Below, piece after piece: positions 1 to 49,767 of a stretch of DNA of 64,000 nucleotides. The translations under genes and the position numbers were made by a program. The notes below the pieces were generated by a model, which was not told where the DNA came from, searched no databases, and saw only the letters and a program-made list of their open reading frames with translations. Positions within the stretch are counted from its first letter, which is position 1, and every line of letters begins with the position of its first letter. The stretch spans positions 2,205,001-2,269,000 of the forward strand of contig NC_083515.1 in assembly GCF_032362555.1 (NCBI RefSeq). The letters are read 5' to 3'. Source of the DNA: Amyelois transitella (lineage: Eukaryota > Arthropoda > Insecta > Lepidoptera > Pyralidae).

Positions 1-326
1 GAGCGCGCCGGCCTGCAGCTGGTGCGGCGGACCCTGGGCTCGCCGCGTACCTGTCTGTGCAGCGCCTCGCAGGCGAGCGCGCCGGCCTGCAGCTGGTGCG
101 GCGGACCCTGGGCTCGCCGCGTACCTGTCTGTGCAGCGCCTCGCAGGCGAGCGCGCCGGCCTGCAGCTGGTGCGGCGGACCCTGGGCTCGCCGCGTACCT
201 GTCTGTGCAGCGCCTCGCAGGCGAGCGCGCCGGCCTGCAGCTGGTGCGGCGGACCCTGGGCTCGCCGCGTACCTGTCTGTGCAGCGCCTCGCAGGCGAGC
301 GCGCCGGCCTGCAGCTGGTGCGGCGT
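1..326 (-). repeat. Array A: 74-bp tandem repeat covering exon 29 3' end and donor
   Basis: Near-identical 74-bp units start at 1, 75, 149 and 223, with the parental exon segment at 297. On the minus strand each unit has about 52 nt of exon 29 (coding [18 protein letters not shown]), the donor GTACGC and about 20 nt that still resemble the exon upstream (GCGAGCCCAGGG against GCGAGCCCAAGG). The period is not a multiple of three, so use of a later donor would shift the frame. The array continues past the left edge. Confidence 0.9.
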
Positions 327-3300
327 GGCCTTGGGCTCGCGCGCCGCCAGGATGGGCCGCGAGTACCGCGCCGTGAACTGCCGCTCCGTGCCCAGGAGGC
401 CCGGCATCAGGAAGTCGAACAGCGACCACAGTTCTAGCACGTTGTTCTGGAAAAAAATATCAGAGCGGTCATTATTACGACAAACCCAAAATTGCTGGAT
501 AAAGGATAATTGTTACGGCATGCGTACCTTAATTGCTATTAAATAGTGAATCAATCCAAAAACAACTATCAATATAAAAAATCCATTACTGAAAAAGCTC
601 ACCTGTATCGGCGTTCCGGACAAAATCAGCCTATGATTCGCAATCAGCTGTTTTATTGCTTTGAACGCCTTCGTCTTCACATTCTTGATCACGTGGCCCT
701 CGTCCAAAATGCAGTAATTCCACCTGATACTGCTGAAGAAATCTATGTCCTTCCTCACGATGTCGTACGAGGCCACTATGAGGTTGTGGAACGGAACGCG
801 CGTGCGCAGACGTTCGCGTTCGACCGGAGTACCCACGTACTGTAGTGGCTTCAGGTATTGGGACGGAATGAATTTGGTCACTTCGAAGACCCAGTGGCCT
901 GGAATTCAAGATTTTTTTAATTTATAATACAAAAATACTTAGAAAGGTGTTCCAACTAACCCGGACCAACTGTCATGATCAGAGATCGGAATAGGTAGAT
1001 TGATTTTATGTACTTGCATCATGAATTACCATAGAAAGCATAACATAGATAAGCCTCTTTTCCAGGATTCCATTTCAGTACTTACACTTACAGTAAACTA
1101 CATTGTCCGCGGGTAACATAGGACTACAATTTACGTGAACGAAGTCGGGGGAAAACAGCTACCACTAATATATTCTTCATCCCACTTGTAAAAATTCCGG
1201 AAAAAATCTTAATAATTTACAAATCCCGCAATCCCGGACGGAGGCATGTCCATATTAATATATACGATTCAGTTCATTGACCCCAATTCAATCTACCTAT
1301 TCCAATCTTTATTCATGATATTTGACACAGAGACAAACAAAACCGTCAAGGTAACATAGGCTTCTCTTTTTCTGAAAATACCCATGGGAGTTTCAATTAA
1401 TTATAAGTTATATCTTATATTTATTTATTTATTTATTCCATTAAAGGTTTCCCTGTTTTTTTTATCTTTATTAAGTAAATACCTAACTCCTCCCAATGGA
1501 TGTTGTAAAAGGCGACTAATAAGACAAACACATTCATATCTAGTGCAAAACAAATATCGTTCATTCAAAATGTGTTAACAAAATATTGATATACTGAACC
1601 CCATCAAAGGTTTCCCTGATTTTTTTTTATCTTTATTAAATAAATTCCTAACTCCTCCCGATGGATGTTGTAAAAGGCGACTAATAAGACAAACGCATAC
1701 ATTAGTGCAAAACAAATATCGTTCATTCAAAATGTGTTTACAAAATATTGATATACTGAGACCATCAAAGGTTTTCCCTGATTTTTTTTACCCTTATTTA
1801 GTAAATACCTAACTCCTCCCGATGGATGTTGTAAAAGGCAGCTTATAGGAGAAACACATTCATTTCTAATGCAAAATATTGATATACTGAACCCCATCAA
1901 AGGTTTTCCCTGTATTTTTTATCTCTATTCAGTAAATACCTAAACAAATAAGTTAAAGAGAGAGAGAGAGTTACCAGTGAGAGTGGGGGGACACACGACC
2001 AGCGAAGGCATCTCGGGCACGGGGGGGCGGATCTGCTGCCTCTCCCAGTGGGCGCCCGCCACCACCACGATGGACTGCAATGTCTTCCCGAGGCCCATGT
2101 CATCACATAACACTCCGTGGAGCTTGTACGTGTATAGGAAACGGAGCCAGTTCACTCCTGCCTGAAATAAAATATAAAGGGATATCGATTTATGTGTCAT
2201 TTACCAGGTGCAGTGGGGTTCCCGGCACCAATTCAAAAAAGAATAGGACCATTCCATTTCTTTCCCATGGATGTCGTAAAAGGTGACTAGGGATAAGCTT
2301 ACACACTTGGGATTCTTTTTAAGAGATGGGCTAGCAGCTGTCACTATTTGAATCTCAATTCTATCATTATGCCAAACAGCTGAACGTGGCCTGTCAGTGT
2401 TTCAAGAATGCTGTTTCTGTCTTCAGTTGTGAAATGTCTCACAAATTTATGTCTCATATCTCCTCGGGCTTGGAGGAAATTAAAAATGTTAACACCAAAT
2501 TACCTGCTGATAACTCCTCAGCTCCGTCGACACTTTGATCGGGATCTTATAGTCTTTTATAGACTTTGGGTTGAACAGTTGTTCCAGGAAATGTTTATCC
2601 CTTGCTCGCCTTTCCCTGAGCTCTAGTGACAGGCCGTCAGGCTCGGGTATGGCCCCGTCCAGAGGCATCAGTTGTATGAGCGATGCGAAGCAACGCGTAG
2701 ACATAATGCGAACGGCTTCGCAGTGGTCGCTCATACGACCTGAAAACAAAAAAATATTGTTTTCTCTATGTACCAAATCTATACATGCATATAATCATGT
2801 CTATATCCCTTGCGGGGTAGACGGAGCCAACAGTCTTAAAAAGACTGATAGGCCACGTTTAGCTGTTTGGCTTGATAATATAGAATTGAGATTCAAATAG
2901 TGACAGGTTGCTAGCCTGTCGCCTAAAAGAAGAATCCCAATTTTGTAAGCCTATCTCTTAGTCGCCTTTACGACATCCACCGCCTCCGCGGCGCCGCAGC
3001 AGACACCTTCGTCCAATGTCGGCAATGACTAACTCACTGACCCAGCAGCGGCAGCACCAGCAGCGCGATGTAGGGCACGAGCCGCAGCTGCAGCGCGTCC
3101 ACCGCCTCCGCGGCGCCGCAGCAGACACCTTCGTCCAATGTCGGCAATGACTAACTCACTGACCCAGCAGCGGCAGCACCAGCAGCGCGATGTAGGGCAC
3201 GAGCCGCAGCTGCAGCGCGTCCACCGCCTCCGCGGCGCCGCAGCAGACACCTTCGTCCAATGTCGGCAATGACTAACTCACTGACCCAGCAGCGGCAGCA

Positions 3301-4516
3301 CCAGCAGCGCGATGTAGGGCACGAGCCGCAGCTGCAGCGCGTCCACCGCCTCCGCGGCGCCGCAGCAGACACCTTCGTCCAATGTCGGCAATGACTAACT
3401 CACTGACCCAGCAGCGGCAGCACCAGCAGCGCGATGTAGGGCACGAGCCGCAGCTGCAGCGCGTCCACCGCCTCCGCGGCGCCGCAGCAGACACCTTCGT
3501 CCAATGTCGGCAATGACTAACTCACTGACCCAGCAGCGGCAGCACCAGCAGCGCGATGTAGGGCACGAGCCGCAGCTGCAGCGCGTCCACCGCCTCCGCG
3601 GCGCCGCAGCAGACACCTTCGTCCAATGTCGGCAATGACTAACTCACTGACCCAGCAGCGGCAGCACCAGCAGCGCGATGTAGGGCACGAGCCGCAGCTG
3701 CAGCGCGTCCACCGCCTCCGCGGCGCCGCAGCAGACACCTTCGTCCAATGTCGGCAATGACTAACTCACTGACCCAGCAGCGGCAGCACCAGCAGCGCGA
3801 TGTAGGGCACGAGCCGCAGCTGCAGCGCGTCCACCGCCTCCGCGGCGCCGCAGCAGACACCTTCGTCCAATGTCGGCAATGACTAACTCACTGACCCAGC
3901 AGCGGCAGCACCAGCAGCGCGATGTAGGGCACGAGCCGCAGCTGCAGCGCGTCCACCGCCTCCGCGGCGCCGCAGCAGACACCTTCGTCCAATGTCGGCA
4001 ATGACTAACTCACTGACCCAGCAGCGGCAGCACCAGCAGCGCGATGTAGGGCACGAGCCGCAGCTGCAGCGCGTCCACCGCCTCCGCGGCGCCGCAGCAG
4101 ACACCTTCGTCCAATGTCGGCAATGACTAACTCACTGACCCAGCAGCGGCAGCACCAGCAGCGCGATGTAGGGCACGAGCCGCAGCTGCAGCGCGTCCAC
4201 CGCCTCCGCGGCGCCGCAGCAGACACCTTCGTCCAATGTCGGCAATGACTAACTCACTGACCCAGCAGCGGCAGCACCAGCAGCGCGATGTAGGGCACGA
4301 GCCGCAGCTGCAGCGCGTCCACCGCCTCCGCGGCGCCGCAGCAGACACCTTCGTCCAATGTCGGCAATGACTAACTCACTGACCCAGCAGCGGCAGCACC
4401 AGCAGCGCGATGTAGGGCACGAGCCGCAGCTGCAGCGCGTCCACCGCGCGCGCCACCGCCTCCGCGGCGCCGCAGCGGGCGCGGGGGCAGGGGCCTTCAT
4501 CCAATGTCGGGATTAA
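273..4516 (-). CDS. BTAF1: BTAF1 exons 25-29: end of solenoid and SNF2 ATPase lobe 1
   Basis: Exons are 25: 4,384-4,516; 26: 2,504-2,739; 27: 1,975-2,161; 28: 603-898; 29: 273-446. Exon 25 gives [16 protein letters not shown] and joins exon 26 at [18 protein letters not shown]. Exon 27 has the Walker A (DDMGLGKT) and [11 protein letters not shown]. Exon 28 has [17 protein letters not shown], the DEGH box and LSGTPIQ. Exon 29 starts [13 protein letters not shown] and ends at CEALHRQ before a GTACGC donor. The next expected exon (second half of lobe 1) is outside the window. Exons 25 and 29 are the parents of two of the tandem arrays. ATPase residues visible here appear intact. Confidence 0.95.
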
Positions 4517-7500
4517 CTGATAAAAAAAAGAACAAATTGAGTTAAAAAAAATACACTTTGAGGGTTATTACCCCGAATTTAAGCTATTTCCTACCACCCT
4601 TGGCTTTAACAGGCAGTTTCAGTCATGTCACATGTCACGGATGCGCGCGAACGTGTTACTTGTATATGTGATAGACGATACATCGCTGAGGAAAATGACC
4701 TCGACCACTATAAAGTGCGCGAACTGTAATGTTGTGATAAGTGAACTGTTGACGTTTCTGCGAAATGTAATTGACTTCACTGATATAAAGAGTGTCCACC
4801 AGTTGTGTATCTCGACATATTCATCGGAAGAAATAACTAAAGCAAAATCACTGTTATATGATGCAGTACCGAATGCGAAAAAGATGCCAATACTGAGGTA
4901 AGAAGGTAAAAAGAGAATATCCAGAGACCTCGACGATATTATCTTTTTGATGAAATCCGGGAATAAAGAACTTTTTCCGATATTTGCAGCCGTCAATTTA
5001 AATAAATTTCCTCCGGTTTCTTTAGATCATGTAGACGCTAGAAGAATACTTAAGGATATTCTTAAAATACAAGAGGAGCTGAGGGTAGTCTTTGCAGGGG
5101 GAACCTAACACGTATTGGATCATATGGTTACACATCCATTTGTCTGAATGTGCAGGTTTCCTCTCACCGTAACAGTATCTGTTAGTCATCAAACTAATGT
5201 ACATAACTTCGAAAATAGACATTGGTACATGGCCGCGGTGGGTTCGAACCGGTACCTTTGCGTTTGCTTTCCTGAACTCCCTTCAAAAACAGTTTGTTTC
5301 TTTGCAGGGTTGTCAAAAACAAGTGCGCCGTAGGAAAGAGCGAACGAGAGAGCAGTGCACCCCTCTCTTAATTCGGTGAGTACACTTCAAACGAGCTTAC
5401 AGTCGGTTCTAAATTGTAATCCGATCAATAGGTATTTATTCGCTTCAATATTTATTATAAATAAATTTATTTAAAACTTTACTGCACGAAAAAAAATTTA
5501 CAAAAGGCGGACTTAAAGTCGTTTGGCATTCTCTCCCAGTTAACCAGCTGACCAAACAGAAAAACTAAGATGGTGGTGCGATAAATATTATATGACAGTT
5601 AAATACCGTGCCGTAAATGTGCCGTGTGGTTCCCGGCACCAATAGAATAATGAATAGAAACACTCCCTCTTTCCCATGGATGTCGTAAAAGGCGACTAAG
5701 GGATAGGCTTAAAAACTTGGGATTCTTTTTTAGGCGATGGGCTAGCAACCTGTCACTTGTTGAATCTCAATTCTATCGTTAAGCCAAATAGCTGAACGTG
5801 GCCTATCAGTCTTGTCAAGACTGTTGGCTCTGTCTACCCCGCAAGGGATATAGACGTGATTATATGAATGAATGAACGAATGACAGTTAAATAAACTTTG
5901 CCACGTACCGGTTAGTTTCAAGCTATTTTGAGCTAAACCCTACCAGTCTTACAACCCTACGAAAAAGAATTGTGGTTTTACGTCAGTTTCTACAATTACC
6001 TGTGACATTACAGTCTGCATCACAGCGACGGAGTCCCTATCGGCCATCGCAGCCAAAGCCCTGGCGGCCATATGCCGCACAGCCGTGTACGTACTACGTG
6101 TCAATGCGCAGGCGGCGGTCGCGCAGCCATTGAGACGCTCCCACAGTTTCTGGTGGAGGGATCCGCAAACAGCTTCGAATACTTGCAAACGCGAGATTAG
6201 TTCTTCGGCCGCGTCCGCGGTCTGGGATTCCAATTCTGTTGAAAAGTAATACATAAACTCACGCCTCTTTCCCGGAGGGATAGGCAGAGACTACCTCTTT
6301 CCACTTGCCACGATCTCTGCGTACTTCCTTCGCTTCATCCACATTCATAACTCTCTTCATGCAAGCTCAGCGGTTTCGGGTACTTCTGACCTGACCCTTT
6401 ACCAGGACGTCCTTAATTTGATCAAGATATGTACGTTCGTCTAGGTCTTCCCACTCAGTTTGTTTGAAAAGTAATGTTTATTAAAAACGACTACAGTAAG
6501 TACACAAGTCGTATTGGCAATATTCGATGGCGCAGAGTAGCGTAACGACCTTATTACAATTTACATTGAATCTAAATTGCAAAAATATTTCTCCTACATC
6601 TCGCTTATAATAGCAGTATATTAGCGGACAGTTCAGTACGCGGGTTCAAAGGCTCGACTGCTCTTAATATAGTCGCGCTATAAAAAAAAAAATACTACTA
6701 CGCAGGTGTAACTTATAAATGTAATAATACTGTACAAAAGCTAAAACTAACTTTTTTTAAGTAAGTCTGGCATATTCGTGCGTCGAGGGTCAAAACTCAT
6801 TTCGATTTCTGAGCAAATTATTTTCAAGAAAGCTAAACGTGGCCAGTGTTCCAGTCTTTTCAAGACAGTTGACTCTGTCTAATCCGCAAGGGATATTGAC
6901 GTGACTATATGTATGTATTTTAAAACAATAACTCGTTACCATATTCATTCGGAGATTAAACAAAGACTCACCGGCGTCTGTCATAACGGTGGAGAATGGT
7001 TCAGTGATGAACTCCCACAATTTGGGCAGTTTATCCGGGAGCTGATCTTCGAAATACTCCGTCAAACTGGTCAGAGCCAACGTTGCACCACGCCGCTGTA
7101 TTCTCAGAATCTTTCGGGCCTGGATAAATAACAACATAGATTAATAATAATAGTAGTATTAAAATAATAGTAATAATAGTAGTAAAATAATAGTATATAA
7201 GATTAAAGTGACAAACAAACAAGCTTACTTTCACATCTCTACTAATATTATAAAGCTGAAGAGTTTGTTTGTTTGAACGCGCTAATCTCAGGAACTAATG
7301 GTTCCAATTGAAAAGTTCTTTTTGCGTCGAATAGACCATTTATCGAGGTAGGCTTTAGGCTATATAAAATCACGCTGCAACTATAAGGAGCTAAAAAAAT
7401 AATGCAAAAAGTGAAAATAAACAGGGGAAACTATTTATCCTTGATGGGATTCAATGATGCCCAAAATAATTATTCCAAGCGGACGAAGTGGCGGGCACAG

Positions 7501-10500
7501 CTAGTTTATAATATAAGTATGGATTAACAATCTATTAAATTCATGTCAGTCAAAAGACTGAAAGGTCAAGTTCAGCTACTTGACTTAATGATGGAGTTGT
7601 GATTCAAATAGTTACAGGTTGTTAGCCCATCGCCCAAAAAGAGGAAATCCCAAGTATATAAGCCTATTCGCCTTTCACGACATCTTTGGGCAAGAGATGG
7701 GAGTTGTCCAATTCTTTTTTGTATTGGTGCCGGGAACCATACGGCACATATTGGCCAGTACAACTTGCGCATAAATACCTCATCTTCGTGGGAGAACAGC
7801 TGATCCAGAGCCAGCGCGTCAGGCGTGTGGGGGGTGAGGGGGGCGTGGGGGGCGGCCGAGTGCGCGGGGGGCCGGCCCCGCCGCGGGGTCACGCGCTCGG
7901 CGTGGCGCTGCTGTTCGCGGAGGGTCACGATGCCGTTGTGCCTGTCCACTGTGGTGACAAAACATTACAAAATCAAAGTTAATGGAATCTTAGGTAATGG
8001 TTTAGTAGGGTCTCGAATCATCAAACGACCTGACCTTAATGTCTACAAATTGTCTGATATTCATACATACATACATACATATGGTCACGTCTATATCCCT
8101 TGTGGGCTAGACAGAGCCAACAGTCTTGAAAAGACTGAATGGCCACGTTCAGCTATTTGGCTTAATGATAGAATTGAGATTAGTGATACGTTGCTATTAC
8201 TGTCTGATATTCACTTTTTCATAATTTCATTGCATTACATACATGCTTCACAATAATTGAAGACACATTTATTTATTTTGCATTGCGCCAACGCAAATCT
8301 CCTGTAAGGTTTCCTTCCACCCAAAGGTTGAATGGAAGAGATTGCATTAGAGACAAGTCCGCCTTTGTACCATCTCTGTCTGTTTGACGTCCGATGAAAA
8401 CGCTGCAGTGTAGTTTGTTCCGCCGCTTCTTCTACACATGCGCTTTGGAAGCGGTAGTAGTTATAATTAGATTTAAGTGATGTGACGTCAATAAGTGATA
8501 CCTTGTATCCATTTTTGAAAATAAATCTATTCTATTCTGTTTTGTATGTGTTAATCTTATGGTGCAATAAAGAGTTTTATCTATCTATCTATCTAGATCT
8601 TAGATTTAGTTCACTTACGCCCCCGATGCAAGGCGTGTTCAGTCTTCCCCTCGGCGCCACTGTCGCCGCTGCCTGAATCTCCATTCGGCTCATCTGCGTT
8701 CTCGAGACTGACGCGAGGTGTGTATTCTGGATCACATCTAGAATACATTCAGTCAGAAAAGTATCGGGAATGGATTATTTATTTATGGTTCCAAATTCAA
8801 ATTTTTGTTTTTTTTGTTGTTGTTAGATTGGCACAACTGTTTTCCATTTTGGCGCGGAGTTTGAGTTGCATCTGTTGTTTACATTAAATACAGTGCTATT
8901 TTTAGTTATATCATATCTAGTGTGTATTGCTAATTTTATAATGGATAAAAACATCGAACAAAGAGTTTGTCTTAAATTTTGCATTGCCAATGGAATATCG
9001 TGTTCGGAGTCACTGAAAATGTTACAGAAGGCTTACGGTGAATCGACTTTATCAAAAACTCGTGCTTATGAGTGGTACAAAGCGTTCAAAAGCGGTCGAG
9101 ATGTGATGGAAGATTTGCCTCGCTCTGGTAGGCCATCAACGTCTGCAACTGAAGTTAACATCGCAAAAGTGAAGGAAATAGTGACTGAAAATCCTCATTC
9201 AACTTTGAGAGAGATAGCCACCGAACTTTCTGTATCTCACGAGTCGATCCGTACCATTTTAACTAATAATTTGGGTATGAAACATGTTGCCGCTCGGCTA
9301 GTCCCAAAAGACCTGAATTTTTTTCAAAAACTCAATCGCATGAGAGTCGCTGAGGACATGCTAGAACGAGTCAATTCTGACCCAACATTCATGAAACGCA
9401 TTGTTACTGGTGACGAGACGTGGGTTTACGAGTTTGACATGCAAACTAGTCAACAAGCTTCGGAGTGGCGCCTTCCAACTGAACCGAAACCGAAAAAACA
9501 ACGGCAAAGTCGTTCAAAAGTCAAAGTCATGTTGACTGTTTTCTTTGACTATCGCGGTGTTGTGCACTCGGAATTCTTGCCGGAAGGTCAAACGGTAAAT
9601 AAGGAATATTATTTGAGTGTTATGCGGCGTTTAAGAGAGCAAATCCGACGAAAAAGGCCAGATTTGTGGAAAGAAAATTCTTGGATTTTGCACCATGATA
9701 ATGCACCTTCGCACAAGGCCATCATTGTGAACGAATTTTTAACCAAACACTCAACAAATACCATCGAGCAACCACCATATTCACCAGATATGGCTCCAGC
9801 CGACTTTTTTATTTTTCCTAAACTCAAATTACCACTTCGTGGCACCCGTTTTCAATCGGTAGAAGACATAAAAGAGAATTCGCGGCGAGAACTGACCTCA
9901 ATTCCGGAAACAGCGTTTAAAAAATGTTTTGATGATTGGATTATTCGTTGGCGTAAGTGTATCGTTTCTAAAGGAGCATATTTTGAAGGTGATAAAATAA
10001 ATTTGGATGAATAACAAACAGTTTGTGTATTATTGATCTTTTCCTGCTACTTTCTTGACAGAGTAGTACGTGGTCATTATTAATTTATTATCCTTACTTA
10101 AACATACATATAGTCAAGTCTATATAGACTTGACTATATGTATGTATCCCTTCAATACTGCATAACTCGCTCACTATTCCATGGTTAATGAAACATAAAT
10201 TTCTTGCATTGCCAAAATGTGAGGAGCTGTAAAGTGACCGTACCAAACAAAATGCTATGGACATACATACATAGAGTCACGTCTATATACTTTGCGGGGT
10301 AGACAGGGCCAACAGTCCTGAAGAGACTGACAGGCCACTTTCAGCTGTTTGGCCTTATGATAGAATTGAGACTCAAACAGTGACAGGTTGCTAGCTCATC
10401 GGCTAAAATAAGAATCCCAAGTTTAAAAGGCATCACTACATAGTATAAAACAAAGTCGCTATTTTAGTCTGTTTGTCTGTATGCTTAAATCTTTAAAATT

Positions 10501-13500
10501 ACGCAACGGATTTTGATGAAGTTTTTTGTAACAGGTAGAGTGATTCAATAGGAAGGTTTTTATGTATAACAACATTTATAATTTTGCACCCGTGCGAAGC
10601 CGGGGCGGGTCGCTAGTTCCCTATAAATGGTATGGACTTACATACCTGAGGAAGGCCTTGAGGTTGACGAGCACCTTGTTGTTGGGCGAGGCGCCGCGGC
10701 CGGCCAGCCGCGCCAGCAGCGCCGCCAGCGCGGCCGCCGCCAGCCGCTGCAGCAGCTCGCTGGGCTCGCGCTTGGCGCTGTCCATGAGCGGCCGCACCAC
10801 GGGGTTGAGCTGGCGCGGCGCGCAGCGCAGCCATGCGCACGCGCCCGCCAGCGCCGCTTGCACTCTGCGCATGCGCGTATCGCATCGTTATGTTATGTTA
10901 TGCTGTATATTGATAATATTATCTTAGACCAAAACAATACAAAATTAAGATTAAGTAATTTAGAAACATTAACAGAAAACATAGAGAAAAAAATAGAAAC
11001 CTTAGAATCTGACATGAGCACGATAACTGATAGTTCCTCAACACAAGCTACGATTCCATCACCTGCAATAAACTATGAAGAAATTATTAATGAAGTCTAT
11101 GAGCGAAATATAAGATCCAAGAATATTGTGATTGTTGGTATCCCTGAGCCAACTACTGCGGGGAATACTATGGAACGTCAGACCTACAACCAAATGGAAG
11201 TGTCTAAAATAATAAAAACTATCTCGAACGACTGCCCAGAACCATTTAAAATTATCCGACTTGGTAAATACAAACCTGAACATACTCGTCCTGTCAAGAT
11301 CTGCTTCAATTCTGAAGAAACTGTAATGAACTTACTACGAAATAAAAATAAAGCACAGTTTGATAAAATAAAAATTTTCTCTGACCGAACACCATTCCAA
11401 ACAAAGCAAATGCAGAAACTAAAAGAAGAATTAGAAAGACGTAGTGTTGCAGGAGAGAAAAATTTGACCATAAAGTTTTTTAAGGGAACTCCAAAAATTG
11501 TATGCACCACAGCAGGAAAACAAGGTGAAAAGACATTACCTTCAAAAAACTAAGTAGTTCGACAGGTAAGGTGTCTCACAAACTTGCCAAAAACTACTCC
11601 GAGATAAAATGCACTAAAAAGACCTTAAAATGTTTCTACATTAATTCACGCAGTCTCGTTAAACGGGGAAAATTCGATGAATTAAAGTGTATAGTTGCTT
11701 ACACTCAGCCTCATATTATAATAGTAACAGAAACCTGGATAAAAAACGAAAGTGATGTCCAGAAACTCCAGATTGCGAGCTACACCCACTACAATAACTT
11801 TCGAAAGGACAGGAAAGGAGGAGGTGTTTCAATCTATGTTCAAAATGACCTACAGCACAGTTTGCTCGAAGAGCACTGTATAGCAAATGACAGCCATTAC
11901 CTTTGGGTTCATCTAGAAAAACAATCCTTGGATATTGCTGCAATATACAACCCTAATGGGAAAAAATCTGATGATTTTTTTGACTCATTTCCACAACAAC
12001 TAAAACGTAGCAAGAGGGCCATTATCTTTGGCGACTTCAATCTTGATTTATTAGTCCCAGATAAAGAAACTCGTAAATACAAGGACGCCTTAAAGGAAAA
12101 TGATTACAGAGTTTTGAACAAAATAAATAGAAAGTACTGCACTCGTGTGACACCTACCACCAACACTATTATTGATCACGTTTGCACTAATCTGAAAACA
12201 AACAACTTTAGCTTTTATTTGTTGGAATCATCAATGTCTGACCACAGGCAGATTTATCTAGAAATTGAAAACTGCAAACCAACACCATTACAAAAAACGA
12301 AATACGCTGCTGTTAACTATGATAAACTATGTGAAACTATGGAAAACGATCTAAGGGCAAGTGATAAAATCTATGAATACGATATACTGGAACAAAAAAT
12401 GCTGAATTGCCTCTCTGAATGTAAAACTACTAAATCAAAATTATTTAATCCCCCGCGACAGGTCTGGATTAATAAAGACATAATGAAAGACATAAATAAC
12501 AGAAATGAAATATGGCAAAATTACAAAACGAACCCACAAAATATATTTTTGGAAAAAGAATTAAAAGTTGCTAGATCTAAAGCATTCAACAACATACAGA
12601 AAACTAAAAAATCGTATTACTTTAAGTACTTCAAAGAACACACAAGCAAACCGAAGAGGATGTGTGTGGGGCTATTCAAGAATTGGCTAATAACAAAAGA
12701 AGAGATCCTGTGAAGCTGAACAAACTTGTCATGGACTCAGCGACAGTAACGGATGAACAAGAAATTTGCGAATGTTTCAATCGCTTCTTTTCCACCATTG
12801 GCTCAACTCTTGCTTCCCAAATCCCGAAAAATCGATTAGCCGGCACTCGTACTTCACGTGCATCTGCAACGAGATCTACTGAACTCACGAACTTCGCACC
12901 TGGAACCGCAGACGAAATCAGTCAGATAATTGATGATCTGGACCCCAATACGAGTTCCGGTATTGACGGAATCAGCCCAAAAACAATTAAGTGTCTGAAG
13001 AACGTAATCCTCATTCCCCTCACGGACTGTATAAATTATTGTCTGGAACGAGGAGTTTTCCCGGATTCCCTAAAACTTGCCAAAGTTACGCCTATCTACA
13101 AGTCCGGTAGTAAATCTGACCCATGTAACTATCGCCCAATTTCGGTTCTGCCTGTTATTTCTAAAATATTTGAAAGAATAATTTATTTTCGCCTAGAAAA
13201 ATATCTGACCTCGATAGACTTTCTGTACAAAAAACAATATGGTTTTAGACCCAAATCGAATACGCTCTCGGCGACCGTGGACCTCGTAACCAAAATCAAA
13301 AACAAAATTGATGAAAAACAAATAGTTATCGGTATATTCATCGACTTAAAAAAGGCGTTTGATACCATCAGCCACAAATTACTACTCAAAAAACTGTCTG
13401 ACATTGCTATATCTGGAAAGGCACACGATATGTTCAGATCATATTTTGAAAATCGTAGACAAATAGTCAAAATAGGTATACATCAAAGTTCTACCAGTCA

Positions 13501-16500
13501 AATTGATTTCGGTATCCCACAAGGTTCAATATTGGGTCCACTTCTGTTCCTCATATATGTCAATAACATCCAACACATAGGCCTAAATGCAGATATCTCT
13601 CTCTACGCAGACGACACAAGTTTATTCTATTACGGTAATTCAATTAACAATATGATATCAAAAGCCCAAAAAGACTTGAATAAATTAAATAAATGGTTCT
13701 TGTCAAATTTACTTACAGTAAATGCCGATAAAACAAATTATGTCGTATTCACTGTAAAAAACAAGAAAATAAGTGAACCAATTCAACTTAAGATAAATGA
13801 CATAGAACTTAAACAAAAAACTAGTGAAAAATATCTTGGACTCAATTTGGATCACTACCTTAACTGGAATAAACATATAAATTTAATCAAAGCTAAACTA
13901 ACCTCATTAACCGGTACTTTGCGTGGAGTAACAAATTGCCTTCCACATAAAATAAAACATCTAATTTATAACTCCCTAGTAAAACCGCATATAGACTATT
14001 TGATTGAGATCTGGGGTACAGCAAACCAAACTAATTTAAAAACAATACAAGTAGCTCAAAATAAACTTATAAAATGTCTTTTTAATTATGACTTCAAAAC
14101 ACCTACTGTTAATATATACAAAAATACAAAAATAATGACAATAAGGCAAACATACTTATACTACACATGCCTGTTAATATATAAAATTATAAATAACCAT
14201 GTCCACACACTAATATCTTTCCGTAGAAAAAGTGAAATACAAAAAACCAAACTACGCAGCGCAAACCATTTAATACTACGCACTCCAAGAACAAACTATG
14301 GAAGATTTAACATACAATATGAAGGAGCGAAAATGTATAATAACCTACCAAAAGAGATGAAAGGAGTAAAATCAATAGCTATTTTTAAAAGAAAACTAAA
14401 AACATATATACACGATTTTTATAATTAACAAACTTACATCACCTTGCGGAAAACAAACAAATATAATATTACAAAAAAAAAAAAAAAAAACAAACTAAAT
14501 TCATTGCTGACACATCTAGAATAAAGTAATCCTTGTGTTGCCGGGCGCGATCGCATGCAGTCGATGACGAAGACGACGTCACTCCGTAGCTCCGTAGATC
14601 TACCCTACTATTTTTTTTCATATTTATTATTCTATACCTTCTGTGTCGAGGCTATTGGTTTTTTATATTTATATTTATTTTGTATAAAATGCATGCCCAT
14701 ACTTTATATAAATATTGTTTTCTCAGTAAGTGATTTATTTTATGTAAATCTTATGAGAATAAAGTTATTCTAAACCTGAAACCTGATGCTGTATCATTTA
14801 CAATTTATAGACATACCAGCAGAACGTTGCGAGCTTGTGAAAGGCTTCTTGTAACAATATGTACACATATTTTTTAAATACTTTTGTTTTTACAATTATT
14901 TGATAAATTAATCTATACTAATATTATAAAACTGAAGAGTTTGTTTGCTTGTTTGAACGCGCTAATCTGAGGAACTACTGGTCCGAATTAAAACAAATAT
15001 TTTTGTGTTAAATAGACCATTTATCGAGGAAGGGTTTACGCTATAGAAAAAAATTTATAAAAAATGGGGAAAAAAATTGGGAAAATTATTCATCATAAAG
15101 TGCTTCAATGATGCCCAAAATAACATATCCACGTGGACGAAGTCGCGGGCACAACTAGTAATTAATATTTGGAATTTATATAGGAAAATAAAATACATAC
15201 GAGACATTGAGGGTGCCGTGCTCGCTGCAGCACTGCGTCACGGAGGCCTGCAGGCAGCGGCGGCGCTCCTCCAGGGTGGTGGCGATCCGCTTTATCTTCA
15301 CGCTGGCTATCATCGGTTGGGTGATCGTTGTCAGGTGCACCACCTGGTTCGGATTTGAACAACTTTATTTTTCCTACTAATAGGTATTATAGATGAGAAA
15401 GTTTGTGAGTGTGTCAGTATGAAACGCAAAAACTACTGAATCGATTACGATGAAATTGGGTATGTAGGTAGCTGAAGACACAGAATAACATATAGGCGGG
15501 CGGCTTCGAGTCTCTCAAAAAAAATAAAACAATAGTATTTCACTTACTAAGAAACACTCGCTTACAAACAAAATTTACATTAATACTAGGTACTTTAATA
15601 AAACAAAATATAGATAGTTAGCCCAATAATTGGACAATTTAATACAAAATATTAATAAAGACAAAATCTGTGTATTTTATATATGTATCTTTTTTTGTAT
15701 TTCTTGTTATGTTTGTAACGAATAAACTACTCAACAGATTTTCACGAAATTTGGCACAAATATTTGTAGAAGAAATTTGTAAATACAATCTATAGATACT
15801 CATTATTATTGATTACAATAATTTCAGAGGAAAGCGTAAATCCAGCAAGAACATGTCGATACTGGACTGTCGTACTCACGACACAATTCAGGAATCGAAA
15901 AAAAAGGCCTCTTAGAAAATGTAAAAAAAAAAAAAGTATAAATAAAAAAAAAAAAGACAACAACGTCCCCGCAATGAGATAGTGACTTACAAATATAATA
16001 ACCCGCTAAAAAAAATAGAAATTCATTCACCTGTTCCAATCTCAATATGTTGTTGAACTCCTCTCCATCAACCGGCAACTTGTAATGTTTCATCAGCGCG
16101 TGCAAATCGCGCGCTTCTTGTAATATCCTGCAATTATAAAAATAAATCGTTAATAATAGTCGTTATATAAAGCATAACAGCCGGATTATACATACATATA
16201 AATAATCACGTCTACAAACCTTGCGGGGCAGACAGAGCCAACAGTCTTGAAAAGAATGACGGGTCATGTTCAGATCATAAATACAAAAAAATAATCACGT
16301 CTACATCCCTTGCAGGGCAGACAGAGCCAACAGTCTTGAAAAGACTGACGGGCCACGGGTTCAGCTGTTTAATAATTTGAATCTCGATTCTATGATTAAG
16401 TCAAACAGCTGAACGTAGTCTTTTCAGTCTTTTCAAGACAGTCGGCCCTGTCTAACCCGCAAGGGATATAGACATGCTTATATGCAGTCCAATCAATCAT

Positions 16501-19500: not shown

Positions 19501-22500
19501 CACCCAAATTCACACCCATAAAACACACACCCGGCACCAATGAAAAAGAATAGGACCACTTCATCTCTTTCCCATGGATGTCACAAAAGGCGACTAAGGG
19601 ATAGGCTTACAAACTGGGGAATATTTTTTTTAGGCAATGGGCTAGCAACGTGTCACTATTTGAATCTCAATTCTTTCATTAAGCCAAATAGCTGAACGTG
19701 GCCATTCAGTGTTTTCAAGACTGTTGGCTCTGTCTACCCCGCAAGGGATATAGACGTGACCGTATATATGTATGTCTCTCTGATGACGTAGACTTTGATG
19801 CGGGAGGCCATCGTTTTATGGGAGGGGGGATCGACTTTGACATGATATACGTATGGGCGTGTTACCCAGCATATCCGCAGCCTTGGTCCTGGCCCTGGTG
19901 ACGTGGTGCTCCCTCTGCTGCTGAGCCTCGCTGCCGCCGAGCAGCCACTTCTGGTTGCGCAGCTCGCTGGTGCCGGAACTGCTCTCCGATGACGTCGACG
20001 TGGTGCGTGGGCGGCGTTCTTGCTGTGGGTAGGAAAAAATATTGAAAACAAATTGATTTTGAGCGAAATTTATTTTGAATCACTCACTGTCACTATTTGA
20101 ATCTCAATTCTAGAACTAAGGAAGGAAGTATGCAGAGATCGTGGTAAGTAGAAAGAGGTAGTCTCTGCCTACCCCGCCGGGAAAGAGGGGTGATTTTATG
20201 TATGTATTCTAGAACTAAGTCACAGCTGAACGTAGTCTATCAGTGTTTTCAAGACTGTTAGCTCTGTCTTAACGGCAAGGGATATAGACGTAATTACATA
20301 TGTATTTAATGTATGTTATTTTAATATGCACGCACATATAGTATGACGCTCTTGAAAAACCGGCTTAGTCAAAGTAAAAGCGCCGATCACCAACATATGT
20401 ACATATGTATAGAGGCTTGACCACGTAAACGGAGCCACATGCTTTTCCTGGGGTTCCAGGTTCTGGTGAGGTGGTTCCAGGTGAGGTGGTGAGTGCATCC
20501 GAACAGAATCTTGATGGAGAAAAATTGGAATTATTGACTCCGAGTGGGCACGATACTCAATGGGGCGACATTCCGACTGTCACACAGCAGCGAAGAATCT
20601 AAATCGCGATTACAAAGATTTCACGGATCGAAGCATAAATACAACCTTCAACTCAACAGTCTGTCACAGGGTGCCCCAGGCATAACACCTAGCCTGGCGG
20701 AAAATCTTCCCTTAGTTAATAATAGATAATAGCAAAAGTAAGTCAAAAGTCAAAAAGAATAAACAATAGACAGGTCCCATATATTTAGCGGCCTCTGTGG
20801 CGCAGCGGTAGTACGCTTGTCTGTGACACCGGAACCCCCGGGTTCGAATCCCGGCCAGGGCATGATGAGAAAAGAACTTTTTCTGATTGGCCTGGCTCTT
20901 GGATGCTTATCTATATAAGTATTTAATATAGAACCGTTGTGTTAGTATCTCGTAACACAAGTCTCGAACTTACTTCGAGGCTAACTCAATCTGTGTAATT
21001 TGTCCCATATACATACATACATAAAGTCACGCCTCTTTCCCGGAGGGGAAGGTAGAGACTACCTCTTTCCACTTGCCACTATCTCTGCATACTTCCTTCG
21101 CTTCATCCACATTCATAACTCTCTTCATGCAAGCTCGGCGGTTTCGGGTACTTTTGACCTTACCCTTTACCAGGACGTCCTTAATTGTCCCATATATATA
21201 TATGTATATTTATTTATTCATACGTGGTCTAGCGGTGCACAAAAGGAGGAATTCTCGAAATTTCCAATTGGAAACTCACCTTGAGCGGCGTGTGCAGCAA
21301 CAGCGCAGGGTCCACCGGCAGGCGGGCGGGCTGCATGGCCAGGCACAGCCACGTGGCCAGCAGCGGGCAGCCGGCCAGGAGGGTGACTTCCAGGCGAGCG
21401 TGGCGGAGGAGGTTCTCCCACACCTGGCATGATACAAGATTCAAATCAAATCGTTTATTTTGTGAACATAGATTAAATTTAAACTAGTGAACAGTGCCGT
21501 GTGGTTGCCGGCACCAATAAAAAGAGAATAGGACCGCTCTATTTCGTTCCCTTGGATGTCGCAAGAGGCGACTAAGGGATAGGCTTGGAAACCTGGGATT
21601 CTTCTCTCAGGCGGTGGGCTAACAATCTGTCGCTATTTGAATCTTAATTCTACACGTGGCCAGCAGCGGGCAGCCGGCCAGGAGGGTGACTTCCAGGCGG
21701 GCGTGGCGGAGGAGGTTCTCCCACACCTGGCATGATACAAGATTATACAGGGTGACTTTTAATTCAACTGCATAAATTTAACTGTTAAATGTACTCATCT
21801 AAAGGATATTTAAAAACGTTAAAAGAAAAATATCGGTTCAAATTTCAGAGAGTACGGGAAAAAATAAAAGTATCAAAATCCACGATCCTAAATACGTCAT
21901 ATCACCCCGGCCGGCAGAAAAGCGACGCGTAAGATTGAGAGGTCAACGACACAATTCATTCAGTTTTTTAAATGTGAAAATGATGACGTTTAATTGTTTA
22001 ATTTAAATAAAAATAGGCTCAAACAGCTCAGAAGCATGGGTAATTGGGTATAGTCTATGTTTAAAAGGATGCAGTTGTTTTAAATGTTACCCTGTATTTA
22101 AACTAGTTAATAGTGCCATGTGGTTCCCGGCACCAATAAAAAGAGAATAGGACCGCTCTATTTCGTTCCCTTGGATGCCGTAAAAGGCGACTAAGGGATA
22201 GGCTTGGAAACCTGGGATTCTTCTCTTAGGCTTCGATGGGCTAACAACCTGTCGCTATTTGAATCTCAATTCTATTCTTAAATTATTGATTAACTAAATT
22301 ACTTATATTATTGAAACGAAATATATCCGAAACAAAAAACTCACTTTCAAAGCTATATCTTGTATCTCACACACATGTTCAAACAGCACCCTCTGATATA
22401 TATGTCTCATCGCTTCTTGCAGCAACTCAGGGCTCCACATCAGGTATTGGTCATCATTCTTCGTTTCCTGACTCTTAACTTCCTCAACATTATTCACTTC

Positions 22501-25500
22501 CTCACCCTTCTTCAACTCCTCACTTTTGACATCTCCATTCGTCTCACCGTTCTCTTCAGTGGTAATTAATGGACGTGTCAAGGTACATAAAGTTTGTAGG
22601 GTCGCTTTTCTTACGGAAGATGTAGAATGGTCTAGATACGGCCAGAGACGAGGCAGAACATCTGCGAGGTCGATTGGGCTGTGAACAGATGAGACATTGT
22701 TTATGATCGGTTACCAACAAATTCGATATTCTTTACCATTAAAATTAACATAGGTCTGCCCGCAAGATGTCCTATGTTGGAAGGGACTCGTATCCAGCGT
22801 CTTGTTTATTTATTTGTTTGTAATATCTTTATTTCACAGAAATTTACACAGTTAGAAGAGAAAGTACATATTTATAAAAGAAATAAATCAATTGCAATGG
22901 CGGATTTCTCCATTAAAGGGATAATCGTCCAACCAACTGGCAAACAATAAAGAAACTAGATAACTAAGTAAAAAAAAAGCGGCCTTTCACTATATTATAC
23001 CTTTATTGTACGAGAAAGAACAAAATATGTCCACCCACAAACATGGTAAGGTCTAAAATTGTTTTATAAATATACAAGAAACAAACACAGGAGTCTTTTG
23101 AAATACATACCTATCAATCTGTAGGTAACATTCATTTTTATAAGCTTCAATCGTGAAAAATTAAAATGAATTTATTTGTCCGTCTCTTTCTAAGTCATGT
23201 AATTAGAATGAGACTAGTGGGTCTAACTTGCAGCAAATGGGAAAAAAGGTTTAGGAAATGGAAAGAAAACCGGGTAATATTTATTTATGAATTTTTTGTT
23301 AATGCTTCCAGTTTGTATGTACTTTAGTGCTGGATCACATATATGTATGAAATGGTTCGTTTTTTAAAATTCATACTGAAATTAATTTTAAAAAGAAACT
23401 AAGATGCTATCTCGCTGTCGTAAACTCACTGCAACATCTTGGCGGCCTGCGGCAGCGCGCACAGCGCGGCCAGCAGCGCCATGTAGGAGTGCGCCGGCGC
23501 AGCCAAATCGTCCTGCTCCTGCAGCAAGCGCCACAGTCTCGCGGCCACGTGGGGAACCGTCTCGCCCTACAATTATTGTATAAAAATTCTAAATATTCAG
23601 GTTCACGCAAAGCTTTATGATATTTCAGTTAGCCGCAAACATAGCGATAAACAGGGTAGTAAGAGTCAAGGCTGATAGGCCAAATACAGCTGCATGGCAT
23701 AATAGTAGAATTGAAATCCAGATAGTGACTGGTTGCTAGCTCATCGCCTAAAAGAATTCAAACTTTAGTCCTTGATCTGAATTACATACATACATACATA
23801 AAATCACGCCTCTTTCCCGGAGGGGTAGGTTGAGACTACCTCTTTCCACTTGCCACGATCTCTGCACACTTCCTTCACTGCATCCACATTCAACTCTCTT
23901 CATGCAAGCTCGGCGGTTTCGAGTACTCTGTTTCGATCTGAGTCATCTCGCTAAAAACATGGCGGAGGCTGATGTTATGTTATGATTATACAGGGTGACT
24001 TTTAATTCAACTGCATAAATTTAACTGTTAAATGTACTCATCTAAAGGATGTTTAAAAACGTTAAATGAAAAATATCGGTTCATATTTCAGAAAGTACGG
24101 AATAAAATAAAAGTATCAAGATCCAATGAGCGTCACCTGTGCGGAGAGCGCCCTGGCGGCGGGCACGAGCGCGCCGGCCGCCACCGCGGACACGTCCTCG
24201 GCCGCGTCCTCCAGCCCCGCCACCAGCTGCTCGATGGCGCCGCAGCATGTCGCCACTTCCTGTCGCAGAACATTATTTTTTTATTTTCATATAAGTTCCT
24301 TTCTACAAAGGAATACAAACAAATATTGATTTTGCAATAAATTTCAATTTAAATCAAGAATGATACTTTCCTAGACGAACGTATCTTGATCAAATTATGG
24401 ACGTCCTGGTAAAGGGTCAGGTTAAAAGTACCCGAAACCGCCGCTTGCATGAAGAGAGTTATGAATGTGGATGAAGCGAAGGAAGTGTGCAGAGATCGTG
24501 GCAAGTGGAAATAGGTAGTCTCTGCCTACCCCTCCGGAAAAGAGGTAGTCTCTGCCTACCCCTCCGGGAAAGAGGTGTGGTTTTATGTATGTATGTAATG
24601 ATACTTTCATACATACATATAATCACGTCAATATCCCTTGGGGGGAAGACAGAGCTAACAGTCTTGAAAAGACTGAAAAGCCACGTCATCTGTTTAGCTT
24701 AATGATAATCAACTAAAAGAAGAATCCCAATTTTATAAGCCTATTCCTTAGTCGTAGGCGACTAAGGAATAGGCTTGATAGAATACATGGGAACGAGATG
24801 GAGCGGTTCTAATCTTTTTTTTATTGGTACCGGGAACCACGGCCCGGCATCAAGAATGATATCTCTAATAATAATGCTTCTCTTTCTCCCTTTCGATTTA
24901 CTTGAGTGAGTGAGATAGTGGGACAATCATTTTTGTCTTGGCTACTGGAGCGTTGGTAGGCAAACTGGTAAGATATTAGTTTCCTACTGCGGGCGTGACG
25001 TCATCTGCTGGTGTCTCACCTCTCTCGCGGCCAGCAGGTACTTGTACCCGAGCAGGGCTCCGTGGCGCGCCTCCCACTGCGGCTGCGAGGCCAGGCGCGA
25101 CAGCAGCGCCGCCATGGCCGCCACTCGCTGTGACGTCATCTGCTGGTGTCTCACCTCTCTCGCGGCCAGCAGGTACTTGTACCCGAGCAGGGCTCCGTGG
25201 CGCGCCTCCCACTGCGGCTGCGAGGCCAGGCGCGACAGCAGCGCCGCCACGGCCGCCACTCGCTGTGACGTCATCTGCTGGTGTCTCACCTCTCTCGCGG
25301 CCAGCAGGTACTTGTACCCGAGCAGGGCTCCGTGGCGCGCCTCCCACTGCGGCTGCGAGGCCAGGCGCGACAGCAGCGCCGCCACGGCCGCCACTCGCTG
25401 TGACGTCATCTGCTGGTGTCTCACCTCTCTCGCGGCCAGCAGGTACTTGTACCCGAGCAGGGCTCCGTGGCGCGCCTCCCACTGCGGCTGCGAGGCCAGG

Positions 25501-28500
25501 CGCGACAGCAGCGCCGCCACGGCCGCCACTCGCTGTGACGTCATCTGCTGGTGTCTCACCTCTCTCGCGGCCAGCAGGTACTTGTACCCGAGCAGGGCTC
25601 CGTGGCGCGCCTCCCACTGCGGCTGCGAGGCCAGGCGCGACAGCAGCGCCGCCACGGCCGCCACTCGCTGTGACGTCATCTGCTGGTGTCTCACCTCTCT
25701 CGCGGCCAGCAGGTACTTGTACCCGAGCAGGGCTCCGTGGCGCGCCTCCCACTGCGGCTGCGAGGCCAGGCGCGACAGCAGCGCCGCCACGGCCGCCACT
25801 CGCTGTGACGTCATCTGCTGGTGTCTCACCTCTCTCGCGGCCAGCAGGTACTTGTACCCGAGCAGGGCTCCGTGGCGCGCCTCCCACTGCGGCTGCGAGG
25901 CCAGGCGCGACAGCAGCGCCGCCACGGCCGCCACTCGCTGTGACGTCATCTGCTGGTGTCTCACCTCTCTCGCGGCCAGCAGGTACTTGTACCCGAGCAG
26001 GGCTCCGTGGCGCGCCTCCCACTGCGGCTGCGAGGCCAGGCGCGACAGCAGCGCCGCCACGGCCGCCACTCGCTGTGACGTCATCTGCTGGTGTCTCACC
26101 TCTCTCGCGGCCAGCAGGTACTTGTACCCGAGCAGGGCTCCGTGGCGCGCCTCCCACTGCGGCTGCGAGGCCAGGCGCGACAGCAGCGCCGCCACGGCCG
26201 CCACTCGCTGTGACGTCATCTGCGATGCGCACACGCCGAGCGTTTGCGCGCACGTCTCACGGACTGGGGCTACCACCTGAATAAGGCACACGACTTTAGA
26301 ATAGAATAGTTCTATTTTTTTCAAATTGGATACGTATTAAAGTCACATCAGCTTAAATATAATTATATCTACTATCGAATATATCAAAATATAACTACAG
26401 ATAATCCAGAATTTGAAAGGGACAAGGGGGAAATAGAATCTCAAAAACCAATCAAATCTCAATGAAATAACCCAAAACAACATTTCACGTACAAAAAGTT
26501 ACATAACACGTTTAAAAAAAAAATTCTAGTTCAATTTCGACAACATCATCTTTTAACGTGAGACAAATAAAAAATAATAATGTGAACGGTAGGTAACCTG
26601 ATCAGATACGAAGTCACCAAATCTGTCCAATGCGAGCACACACAGAAGTCTAAGTGCCATGTCTTCAAGCCATTCTTGGTGAGCTTCTTCCATCTTCAAC
26701 AGACAAAATTAAAATCATTAATAACTTTAATTAGAATAGAATAGATTTATTTTCAAAATTGAATACAAGGTATCCCTTATTGACATCACATCACTTAAAT
26801 CTAATTATAACAACTACCGCTTCCAAACTGTATGTGTAGAAGAAGCGGCGAAACAAACTACACTGTAGCATTTGCACCGGCAATTCATAAAACAACTAAA
26901 ATTTCGGCGGCTACTGGATCTAGATCCATACTTCACGATAGGAACACGAAGTCATGTCAATTTAATAGTAATGTCTTTCCGCTTTCTTTTATTTTTGCGT
27001 GTGAACCCTCCGCCATTACGGTTTGTTAATGTCTGGGAATGTCTCCAATACCCACCATGTTTCTCGGATATTGCACAGATTACTTTCAAAAGACCTATTT
27101 CTCCTGGTAATTTTTGTAAATTGTAAAGCACCACACCAACCCCCTAGTGGTTAACGAAAACATTCATTTTCAGCCCCGGATTCCGAAGACCTTTAATCTG
27201 GCCAAGTGTTTGAACTGAACTGAGTTTGTAAATACACACCAGCCTAGCGACTAAACCCAGCATTCTAGAGGTTCCAGAGTCAGACCCACCTGTTCCCTGG
27301 TCATGTGTGACGTCATCCCCGCGCCAGAAGCCACTTTAACACTCAGTAGGGCCAACACCGACCTCTAGCATTCTGCAGTGAGACCCACCTGTTCCCTGGT
27401 CATGTGTGACGTCATCCCCGCGCCAGAAGCCACTTTAACACTCAGCAGTGCCCACACCGGCCTCTAGCATTCTGCAGTGAGACCCACCTGTTCCCTGGTC
27501 ATGTGTGACGTCATCCCCGCGCCAGAAGCCACTTTAACACTCAGCAGTGCCCACACCGGCCTCTAGCATTCTGCAGTGAGACCCACCTGTTCCCTGGTCA
27601 TGTGTGCCGTCATCGCCGCGCCTGAAGCCACTTTAACACTCAGTAGTGCCCACACCGGCCTCTAGCATTCTACAGTGAGACTTACCTGTTCCCTGGTCAT
27701 GTGTGACGTCATCCCCGCGCCAGAAGCCACTTTAACACTCAGCAGTGCCCACACCGGCCTCTAGCATTCTACAATGAGACCCACCTGTTCCCTGGTCATG
27801 TGTGACGTCATCCCCGCGCCAGAAGCCACTTTAGCTTTCAATAGCTGCCGCAGAGCGCTGGCGGCCCCGTGTCGCGCCTCCCACGAGGGCACGAACAGCT
27901 GGGCCTGTAGGGCTCCACACCAGCCCTCTAGCGGCCAACGGCTGCATTCGGCCCACGTGCCAGAACAATCGGGTACTGGTAAGCTGGTGTCCACTGAAAA
28001 TATGCTCATCATTATTAATATACCCCCATAATCCAGTGGATCCGACGAGCGTCTACATATGAGTATGAGACGACATGATAGCGTTCTACTAATTGCATTC
28101 TCAATTTAAGTGTGATTGTTTATTCCTGTTGAATGTGGGTTGGAACTTGAAATTAATGGAGAAAATGAAAATTGGTACTTGTGACGAAAAAAAAGAACTG
28201 TATTAATGCACTGATTTTCACAATATTTGGTTAGACAAAATGAACTAAGATTGTTAGCAGTATAGTGAGTTATATAGCCTAAAGCCTTCCTCGATAAATG
28301 GTCTATTCAAAACAAAAAGAATTTTTCAATTCGAACCAGTAGTTCCTGAGATTAGCGCGTTCAAACAAACAAGCAAACAAACAAACTCAACAGCTTTATA
28401 TTATAATATTAATATAGATTTAATTCAGTCAAATTTGACTATCTCACCGATTAAATCCTCATGCTCCAACTTGATCTTCTTGCGGTCTGGCTCCACGGGG

Positions 28501-49107: not shown

Positions 49108-49767
49108 TATAAAAATAGTTCTGAGTCTAAAGTAAATTCTTAACAAGGGTTTCAAAATATTTGATAATTATCTTTTTATTACGACGGTAAAATATTATGA
49201 ATTTCTAACAGTTTTGAAACTTCTGAGCTTTTTTCGAACTCTATTCCTATTACGCTTGTTTCCCATCCATCATTTCATATGCTGACATAGCGTTAGTTGA
49301 CCGAAATGACTTTGATGTGACATTTTCTTAAGCAAAGAAATTGACAAAGTAAATATAGCCTTGTCAACGTTTGCAAATAAGGGGTTGTAATAGGTTTGTG
49401 GTCCTGTGTTACGTCAATAGTTAGGATGAAATGACTATGATGGAACTTCATCTAAGTTAAAAATAAAGTAGTAACGCAATAAAAGACAGAACTCAAATAA
49501 GTAGAAGTAAATAAAGACTTAGGAATCTTAACTTTGGCGAGCTGGCAATGTCAATGTGCTTCGCCTAACTAGTTTAGCAAAAATAAATTTACTATACAAT
49601 TTTGCCGTCAAATCGTCAAAATAATTAAAAATGACATTGTGGTGTGATATGAAGTAGCCTAAGGAAATATCCAATTTATCCAATTTTGTATAAATTAAAA
49701 TTTGGGATAAGACAGTACCAACTAGATTAAATTTAAATTAAATAAACCAATACGATAGCCAAAAATA
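49108..49767. promoter_or_regulatory. Divergent promoter region of NTHL1 and EMC3
   Basis: The two start codons lie 660 bp apart, head to head. No TATA box or repeat family is evident; the sequence is AT-rich. Shared regulation is inferred from the arrangement alone. Confidence 0.45.

Follow-up and report, generated by a model that had tools for sequence, protein, structure and literature searches.

Why should four exons of a single gene each run directly into a tandem array that repeats the end of the exon together with its 5' splice site? The question is raised by a BTAF1/Mot1 gene lying in a 64,000-nucleotide stretch of the Amyelois transitella genome (hereafter the window), where a sequence-only reading had noticed four such arrays and had ascribed them, as events unlikely to be due to chance, either to a local mechanism or to selection for repeated donors. 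The answer that we consider probable is that tandem duplication recurred at GC-rich exon edges and was tolerated by splicing, and that the arrays are not batteries of donors favoured by selection.

The BTAF1/Mot1 gene and its neighbourhood

The minus strand of the window carries an insect-like BTAF1/Mot1 gene, which a curated GT-AG model divides into 28 exons; the gene extends off the low end of the window, with its C-terminal part beyond it. When only the parental donors are used, the model yields a product of 1544 aa with zero stops. Pfam matches on the spliced product comprise DUF3535 (5.8e-90) and SNF2 (2.5e-51). PDB chains that bear the name 'Helicase-like protein' (7zb5, 6g7e and others), and that we take to be Mot1, are matched by the SNF2 part with E 5.5e-78 and by exon 8 with E ~9e-7. 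The presence of HEAT repeats, DUF3535 and an SNF2 ATPase domain in a single protein places the gene in the BTAF1/Mot1 family. Every exon boundary in the model was set by hand, so the model is not independent evidence for use of the first donor; its support comes from the frame that stays open across 28 exons and from the protein and domain matches. An automatic 17-exon model was dropped, as it skipped exons and read the exon-8 and exon-28 arrays as coding. The exons numbered 7, 9, 25 and 29 in the sequence-only reading are exons 6, 8, 24 and 28 here, its numbers being one higher.

Several other elements lie in or beside the gene. The intron between exons 19 and 20 contains a mariner-type transposase (Transposase_1, Mos1 HTH) in an unbroken 395-codon frame at 8827-10014 on the plus strand. 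The intron that separates exons 18 and 19 holds two long frames (11529-14428), also on the plus strand; since the latter of the two has a match to the reverse transcriptase family PF00078, a retroelement of non-LTR type is likely there. Matches to the tRNA family at 20791-20862 and 38796-38867 (32.3 and 35.6 bits) may represent SINE heads or tRNA genes. At 46029-47667 on the minus strand are frames of the HhH-GPD base-excision-repair type, with scores of 40.2 bits (above) and 23.8 bits (below) against a curated cut-off of 26.2, presumably belonging to an NTHL1-like gene, and an EMC3/TMCO1-like exon lies at 49759-49944 on the plus strand.

Anatomy and history of the arrays

All four arrays and their parents are on the minus strand and, as the earlier reading had it, the parental exon (taken from the gene model in each case) stands at the high-coordinate end of every array and further donors follow in register. 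Exon 6 (27785..27993; GC 0.64; donor CAG/GTGGGT), which is in frame in the gene model, is the parent of a 99-bp array at 27278..27833, to which TRF assigns 5.6 copies at 95% identity and which supplies five extra donors; its unit also contains a short stretch ending in CAG, seen by eye. Exon 8 (26100..26276; GC 0.71; donor GAG/GTGAGA) leads into an array at 24995..26223 made of 9.1 copies of a 135-bp, 45-codon unit (99%), with eight extra donors. Exon 24 (4384..4516; GC 0.74), which has the weak donor TGG/GTCAGT, is followed at 2976..4447 by 12.1 copies of a 122-bp unit (100%) bearing 11 extra donors. Exon 28 (273..446; GC 0.71; donor CAG/GTACGC) is the parent of a 74-bp array at 1..340, clipped by the window edge, with 4.6 copies (98%) and at least three extra donors. 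Altogether at least 27 extra GT donors stand in register, and each array copy consists of exon sequence plus a GT donor. These figures bear out both the placement of the arrays at the ends of four BTAF1 exons and the description of three of the four parents as very GC-rich. Among the 17 TRF rows of the window (periods up to 500), only the four BTAF1 donor arrays combine a unit longer than 30 bp with at least four copies.

In form the arrays are minisatellites, being head-to-tail repeats of high identity with units of 74-135 bp (two of the four exceed the usual 100 bp), and they can be called multi-donor minisatellites in that every unit bears a splice donor. They do not have the form of tandem duplicated exons: each copy adjoins the donor of the preceding copy, and no clear pyrimidine tract is visible by eye. 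The top-scoring similarity between units, judged without a null distribution, is one 12-mer shared by those of exons 6 and 8, which supports the independent origin that had been proposed from the differing unit lengths; a common ancestral unit was rejected on the same comparison. Of the 19 occurrences of the CRE palindrome TGACGTCA in the window, 15 fall within 24995-27833, the span of the exon-6 and exon-8 arrays and their parents.

The arrays differ in how far their copies have departed from the parent. The exon-8 copies equal the parent over the aligned 135 nt, and a single base differs, in the last copy. Those of exon 24 are mutually identical; aligned with the parent exon, they are missing two stretches of 12 nt and otherwise differ at few bases. 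Those of exon 28 are likewise mutually identical, and it is at the start of the unit that they depart from the parent. In the exon-6 array, each copy shows 3 to 11 differences per 99 positions from the first copy, and the donor itself is altered in one of the five copies, to GTAAGT. The arrays of exons 6, 24 and 28 hold a unit that has drifted from its coding parent, and in exons 24 and 28 this drifted unit appears to have been multiplied subsequently. At its distal end (2940-2990), the exon-24 array is fused inside a unit to SINE-like sequence; the fusion was read by eye and the SINE-like match was computed.

Intron 6 also holds older material on the minus strand. A decayed copy of nt 45-88 of exon 6 lies at 27122..27165 (score 20, whereas the best of 300 shuffles scored 15), and a second decayed piece, from nt 45, lies just past the array at 27235..27265 (score 14, where 500 shuffles reached at most 12, the exon piece tested having been chosen after the similarity had been noticed). 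These two pieces, together with the array in the same intron, suggest that duplication at the exon-6 border probably occurred more than once.

All 28 exons were compared with the sequence flanking them, as far as 1.5 kb to each side, and a hit had to exceed the highest score among 30 shuffles by more than 6. Five exons proved to have self-copies beside them. The copies are on the donor side in the four array exons and on the acceptor side in exon 12 (21280..21423, minus strand; GC 0.72; gene model and self-comparison). The upstream copy at 21653..21744 (minus strand) comprises the intron end, the acceptor and the first 74 nt of exon 12, is identical at 91 of 92 nt and lies at an offset of 303 bp, the whole two-copy region extending over 21350-22274. 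A SINE-like piece sits between the copies; its identity is 92% to one further upstream and no more than 84% to any other copy in the window, and the duplicated unit therefore probably included this piece.

Chance, base composition and competing explanations

How surprising is it that four arrays should span donors? With the arrays collapsed to one copy and units of the observed lengths placed at random, the fraction spanning a BTAF1 donor was 0.033, 0.043, 0.052 and 0.056, with a product of ~4e-6. When units were required to have a GC content of at least 0.65, or 0.60 for the 99-bp unit (own GC 0.556), the fractions rose to 0.112, 0.249, 0.302 and 0.373 (product ~0.003), and with wholly exonic units also excluded the donor-spanning share reached 0.54, 0.55, 0.60 and 0.60 (product ~0.11). 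The view that four such events in one gene are unlikely to be chance thus holds against random placement, weakens once GC is taken into account and is lost when wholly exonic units are left out. Nearly all of the GC-rich DNA in the window is exonic. GC content and the selective removal of exonic arrays can therefore account for the donor bias but need not be its cause, since both filters were picked after the data had been seen and the calculation shows their sufficiency, not the actual cause. These fractions, like the counts of borders given here, cover the BTAF1 borders only.

Base composition is nevertheless associated with duplication. GC content is higher in the array exons than in the remaining 24 (one-sided p = 0.028), and likewise in the five exons with self-copies, exon 12 included, than in the rest (one-sided p = 0.010). 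The whole window contains 15 direct-repeat clusters, nine of which have an offset of up to 350 bp; the five of these that cross BTAF1 exon borders have a GC content of 0.57-0.78, compared with 0.30-0.44 for the four elsewhere. This comparison leaves out the remaining six clusters, whose offsets are larger (435 to 1041 bp; GC 0.23-0.47). The proposal of a local mechanism thus survives in the form of mutation at GC-rich edges, although GC alone is not sufficient: exons 9, 10, 19 and 21 have no array at GC 0.70-0.77, and exon 6, judged by its last 75 nt, reaches a GC content of only 0.57 and ranks 18th of 28. A special DNA structure or hairpin is not supported as a cause, the four units folding no better than shuffles (z 0.01 to 0.86).

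What donor choice would mean for the protein differs from array to array. When splicing was modelled in silico, a stop resulted with each of the later donors of exon 6 (five) and of exon 24 (11); a frame that continues across the first donor of exon 6 ends at a stop after 21 nt. The later donors of exon 28 shift the frame save every third, the next exon lying outside the window. At exon 8 the frame is kept through the rest of the model whichever of the nine donors is chosen, and each unit of 135 bp adds 45 residues; on the gene model, this is the sole array at which every choice of donor could alter rather than destroy the protein.

These consequences bear on two adaptive explanations. Selection might favour repeated donors, either to have a poor 5' splice site better recognised or to provide U1 snRNP platforms that shield long AT-rich introns from premature cleavage. 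The number of extra donors, with GT in register in all of them, would be in keeping with this, as would the weak donor of exon 24 and the GTAAGT of one exon-6 copy. However, in strength the array donors do not fall below the remaining 24 BTAF1 donors (p = 0.87), and 12 of the 13 weakest among the 28 have no array, so weak donors are unsupported as the cause; the later donors of exons 6 and 24 would cut the protein short, and the identity of the copies may stem from homogenisation, not constraint. The selective half of the original proposal is accordingly without support, and we regard such selection as distinctly improbable. In a second, equally improbable explanation, the exon-8 array would be a device for setting protein length: depending on which of its nine in-frame donors was used, the HEAT solenoid of BTAF1 would gain between 0 and 8 modules, each of 45 residues. 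The exon-8 read-through is indeed predicted to form a regular series of helical hairpins (mean pLDDT 67.8, pTM 0.61), and the model resembles HEAT/ARM solenoids in the PDB (best E 1e-5), though only in a general way, the TM to the query being 0.18-0.37 among the 50 matches listed. This prediction comes from a single-sequence model of moderate confidence, only one donor in three keeps the frame at exon 28 and no later donor of exons 6 and 24 leaves the protein intact, and the near-identity of the copies to the parent means that the open frame may reflect youth alone, which is the simplest reason for it. A bolder combination, in which the exon-8 array is a splice-controlled ruler with 45-residue HEAT steps and a copy number varying between individuals, and the other arrays are poison donors tuning BTAF1 dosage, is highly improbable.

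Two further explanations concern the reality and the age of the structures. Amplification or assembly might have multiplied GC-rich exon ends, and copies that are up to 100% identical within GC-rich DNA are what such an artefact would leave. Yet the copies of exons 6, 24 and 28 have common differences from the parent, unlike the product of a simple artefact, and decayed older pieces past the exon-6 array would not be expected from one; we consider an artefact unlikely, with exon 8 the array most open to this doubt. The arrays might instead mark introns recently born by tandem duplication as in the Rogers model, for which duplications of exon and splice site are the substrate (PMC4974935, PMC2891723). 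That model derives both intron ends from a duplicated AGGT, whereas introns 6, 8 and 24 run 584, 735 and 236 bp past their arrays to separate acceptors and do not have both ends from the duplicated segment (intron 28 leaves the window), and exons 7, 9 and 25 have no self-copy upstream. Intron birth is therefore a very improbable source of the arrays.

Recurrent duplication at tolerant exon edges would proceed as follows. GC-rich exonic DNA at an exon/intron border would be duplicated in tandem, several independent times, by slippage, template switching or unequal exchange. Where the duplicated segment lay across the 5' splice site, the copy would consist of an exon tail, a GT donor and a few intron bases. 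Splicing from the first donor, if this is what cells do, would still yield normal mRNA, and such duplications would thus be nearly neutral and able to persist. Duplications entirely within a coding exon would usually break the protein, and AT-rich intron DNA would supply few GC-rich units. The copies would then drift as non-coding DNA through indels and base changes, until a diverged copy re-expanded and homogenised the array. Array donors no weaker than the rest, the scarcity of arrays among the weakest donors and ordinary folding together lead us to read the arrays as tolerated by-products.

Some observations count against this explanation. Four high-copy arrays in one gene are still many, exons 9, 10, 19 and 21 are just as GC-rich and have none, and the exon-6 unit has a GC content of only 56%. 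When the GC filter alone is applied, four donor hits out of four keep a probability of only ~0.003; the explanation needs the added step that selection purges wholly exonic arrays. The sequence GATGACGTCAC is present in both the exon-6 and the exon-8 units. Reed and Maniatis reportedly found in 1986 that among duplicated donors the one nearest the intron is preferred, a preference that would predict use of the later donors, which would be harmful here.

Known systems and significance

GC-rich minisatellites and VNTRs are arrays with units of tens to ~100 bp that have re-expanded recently. The BTAF1 arrays resemble them in being GC-rich, tandem and seemingly re-expanded of late, and differ in that each unit spans a splice junction. 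The minisatellite of IFI6 has a short unit, of 12 bp. It offers, by analogy, the nearest precedent as a multi-donor minisatellite in which the units bear splice donors; two of its downstream repeat units act as donors and give rise to three mRNA species, according to a paper citing the original work (PMC4526556). Unlike in IFI6, the BTAF1 units measure 74-135 bp and contain long exon stretches, four independent arrays occur in one gene, and the donors are known from the sequence alone.

Tandem duplication across exon borders is also a route of intron gain, described for a potato RdRp gene (PMC4974935) and for Drosophila (PMC2891723); the former study also refers to fission yeasts, in which an exonic segment of 24 bp underwent multiple tandem duplication. 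As in those cases, the duplication in BTAF1 crosses an exon/intron border and doubles the splice signals. Unlike the introns described there, which arise anew, the BTAF1 introns are filled with copies of the preceding exon, which requires no new intron. Mutually exclusive exons that arose by tandem duplication, a class treated in PMC9741552, share with the arrays the presence of exon-sequence copies within one gene; the BTAF1 copies, however, adjoin a donor without a proper acceptor and are mostly non-coding. The titles and abstract openings found in a literature search, in which BTAF1 was not itself a term, describe no such arrays in Lepidoptera or in BTAF1.

If the pattern proves general, minisatellites would repeatedly arise at the exon edges of GC-rich genes and be tolerated by selection where they lie on the donor side, which would link the mutation of tandem repeats to the choice of splice sites and the growth of introns. 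Such arrays would then offer natural test cases for how the spliceosome chooses among identical donors in series, and that of exon 8 would illustrate how a repeat protein may gain modules in one step.
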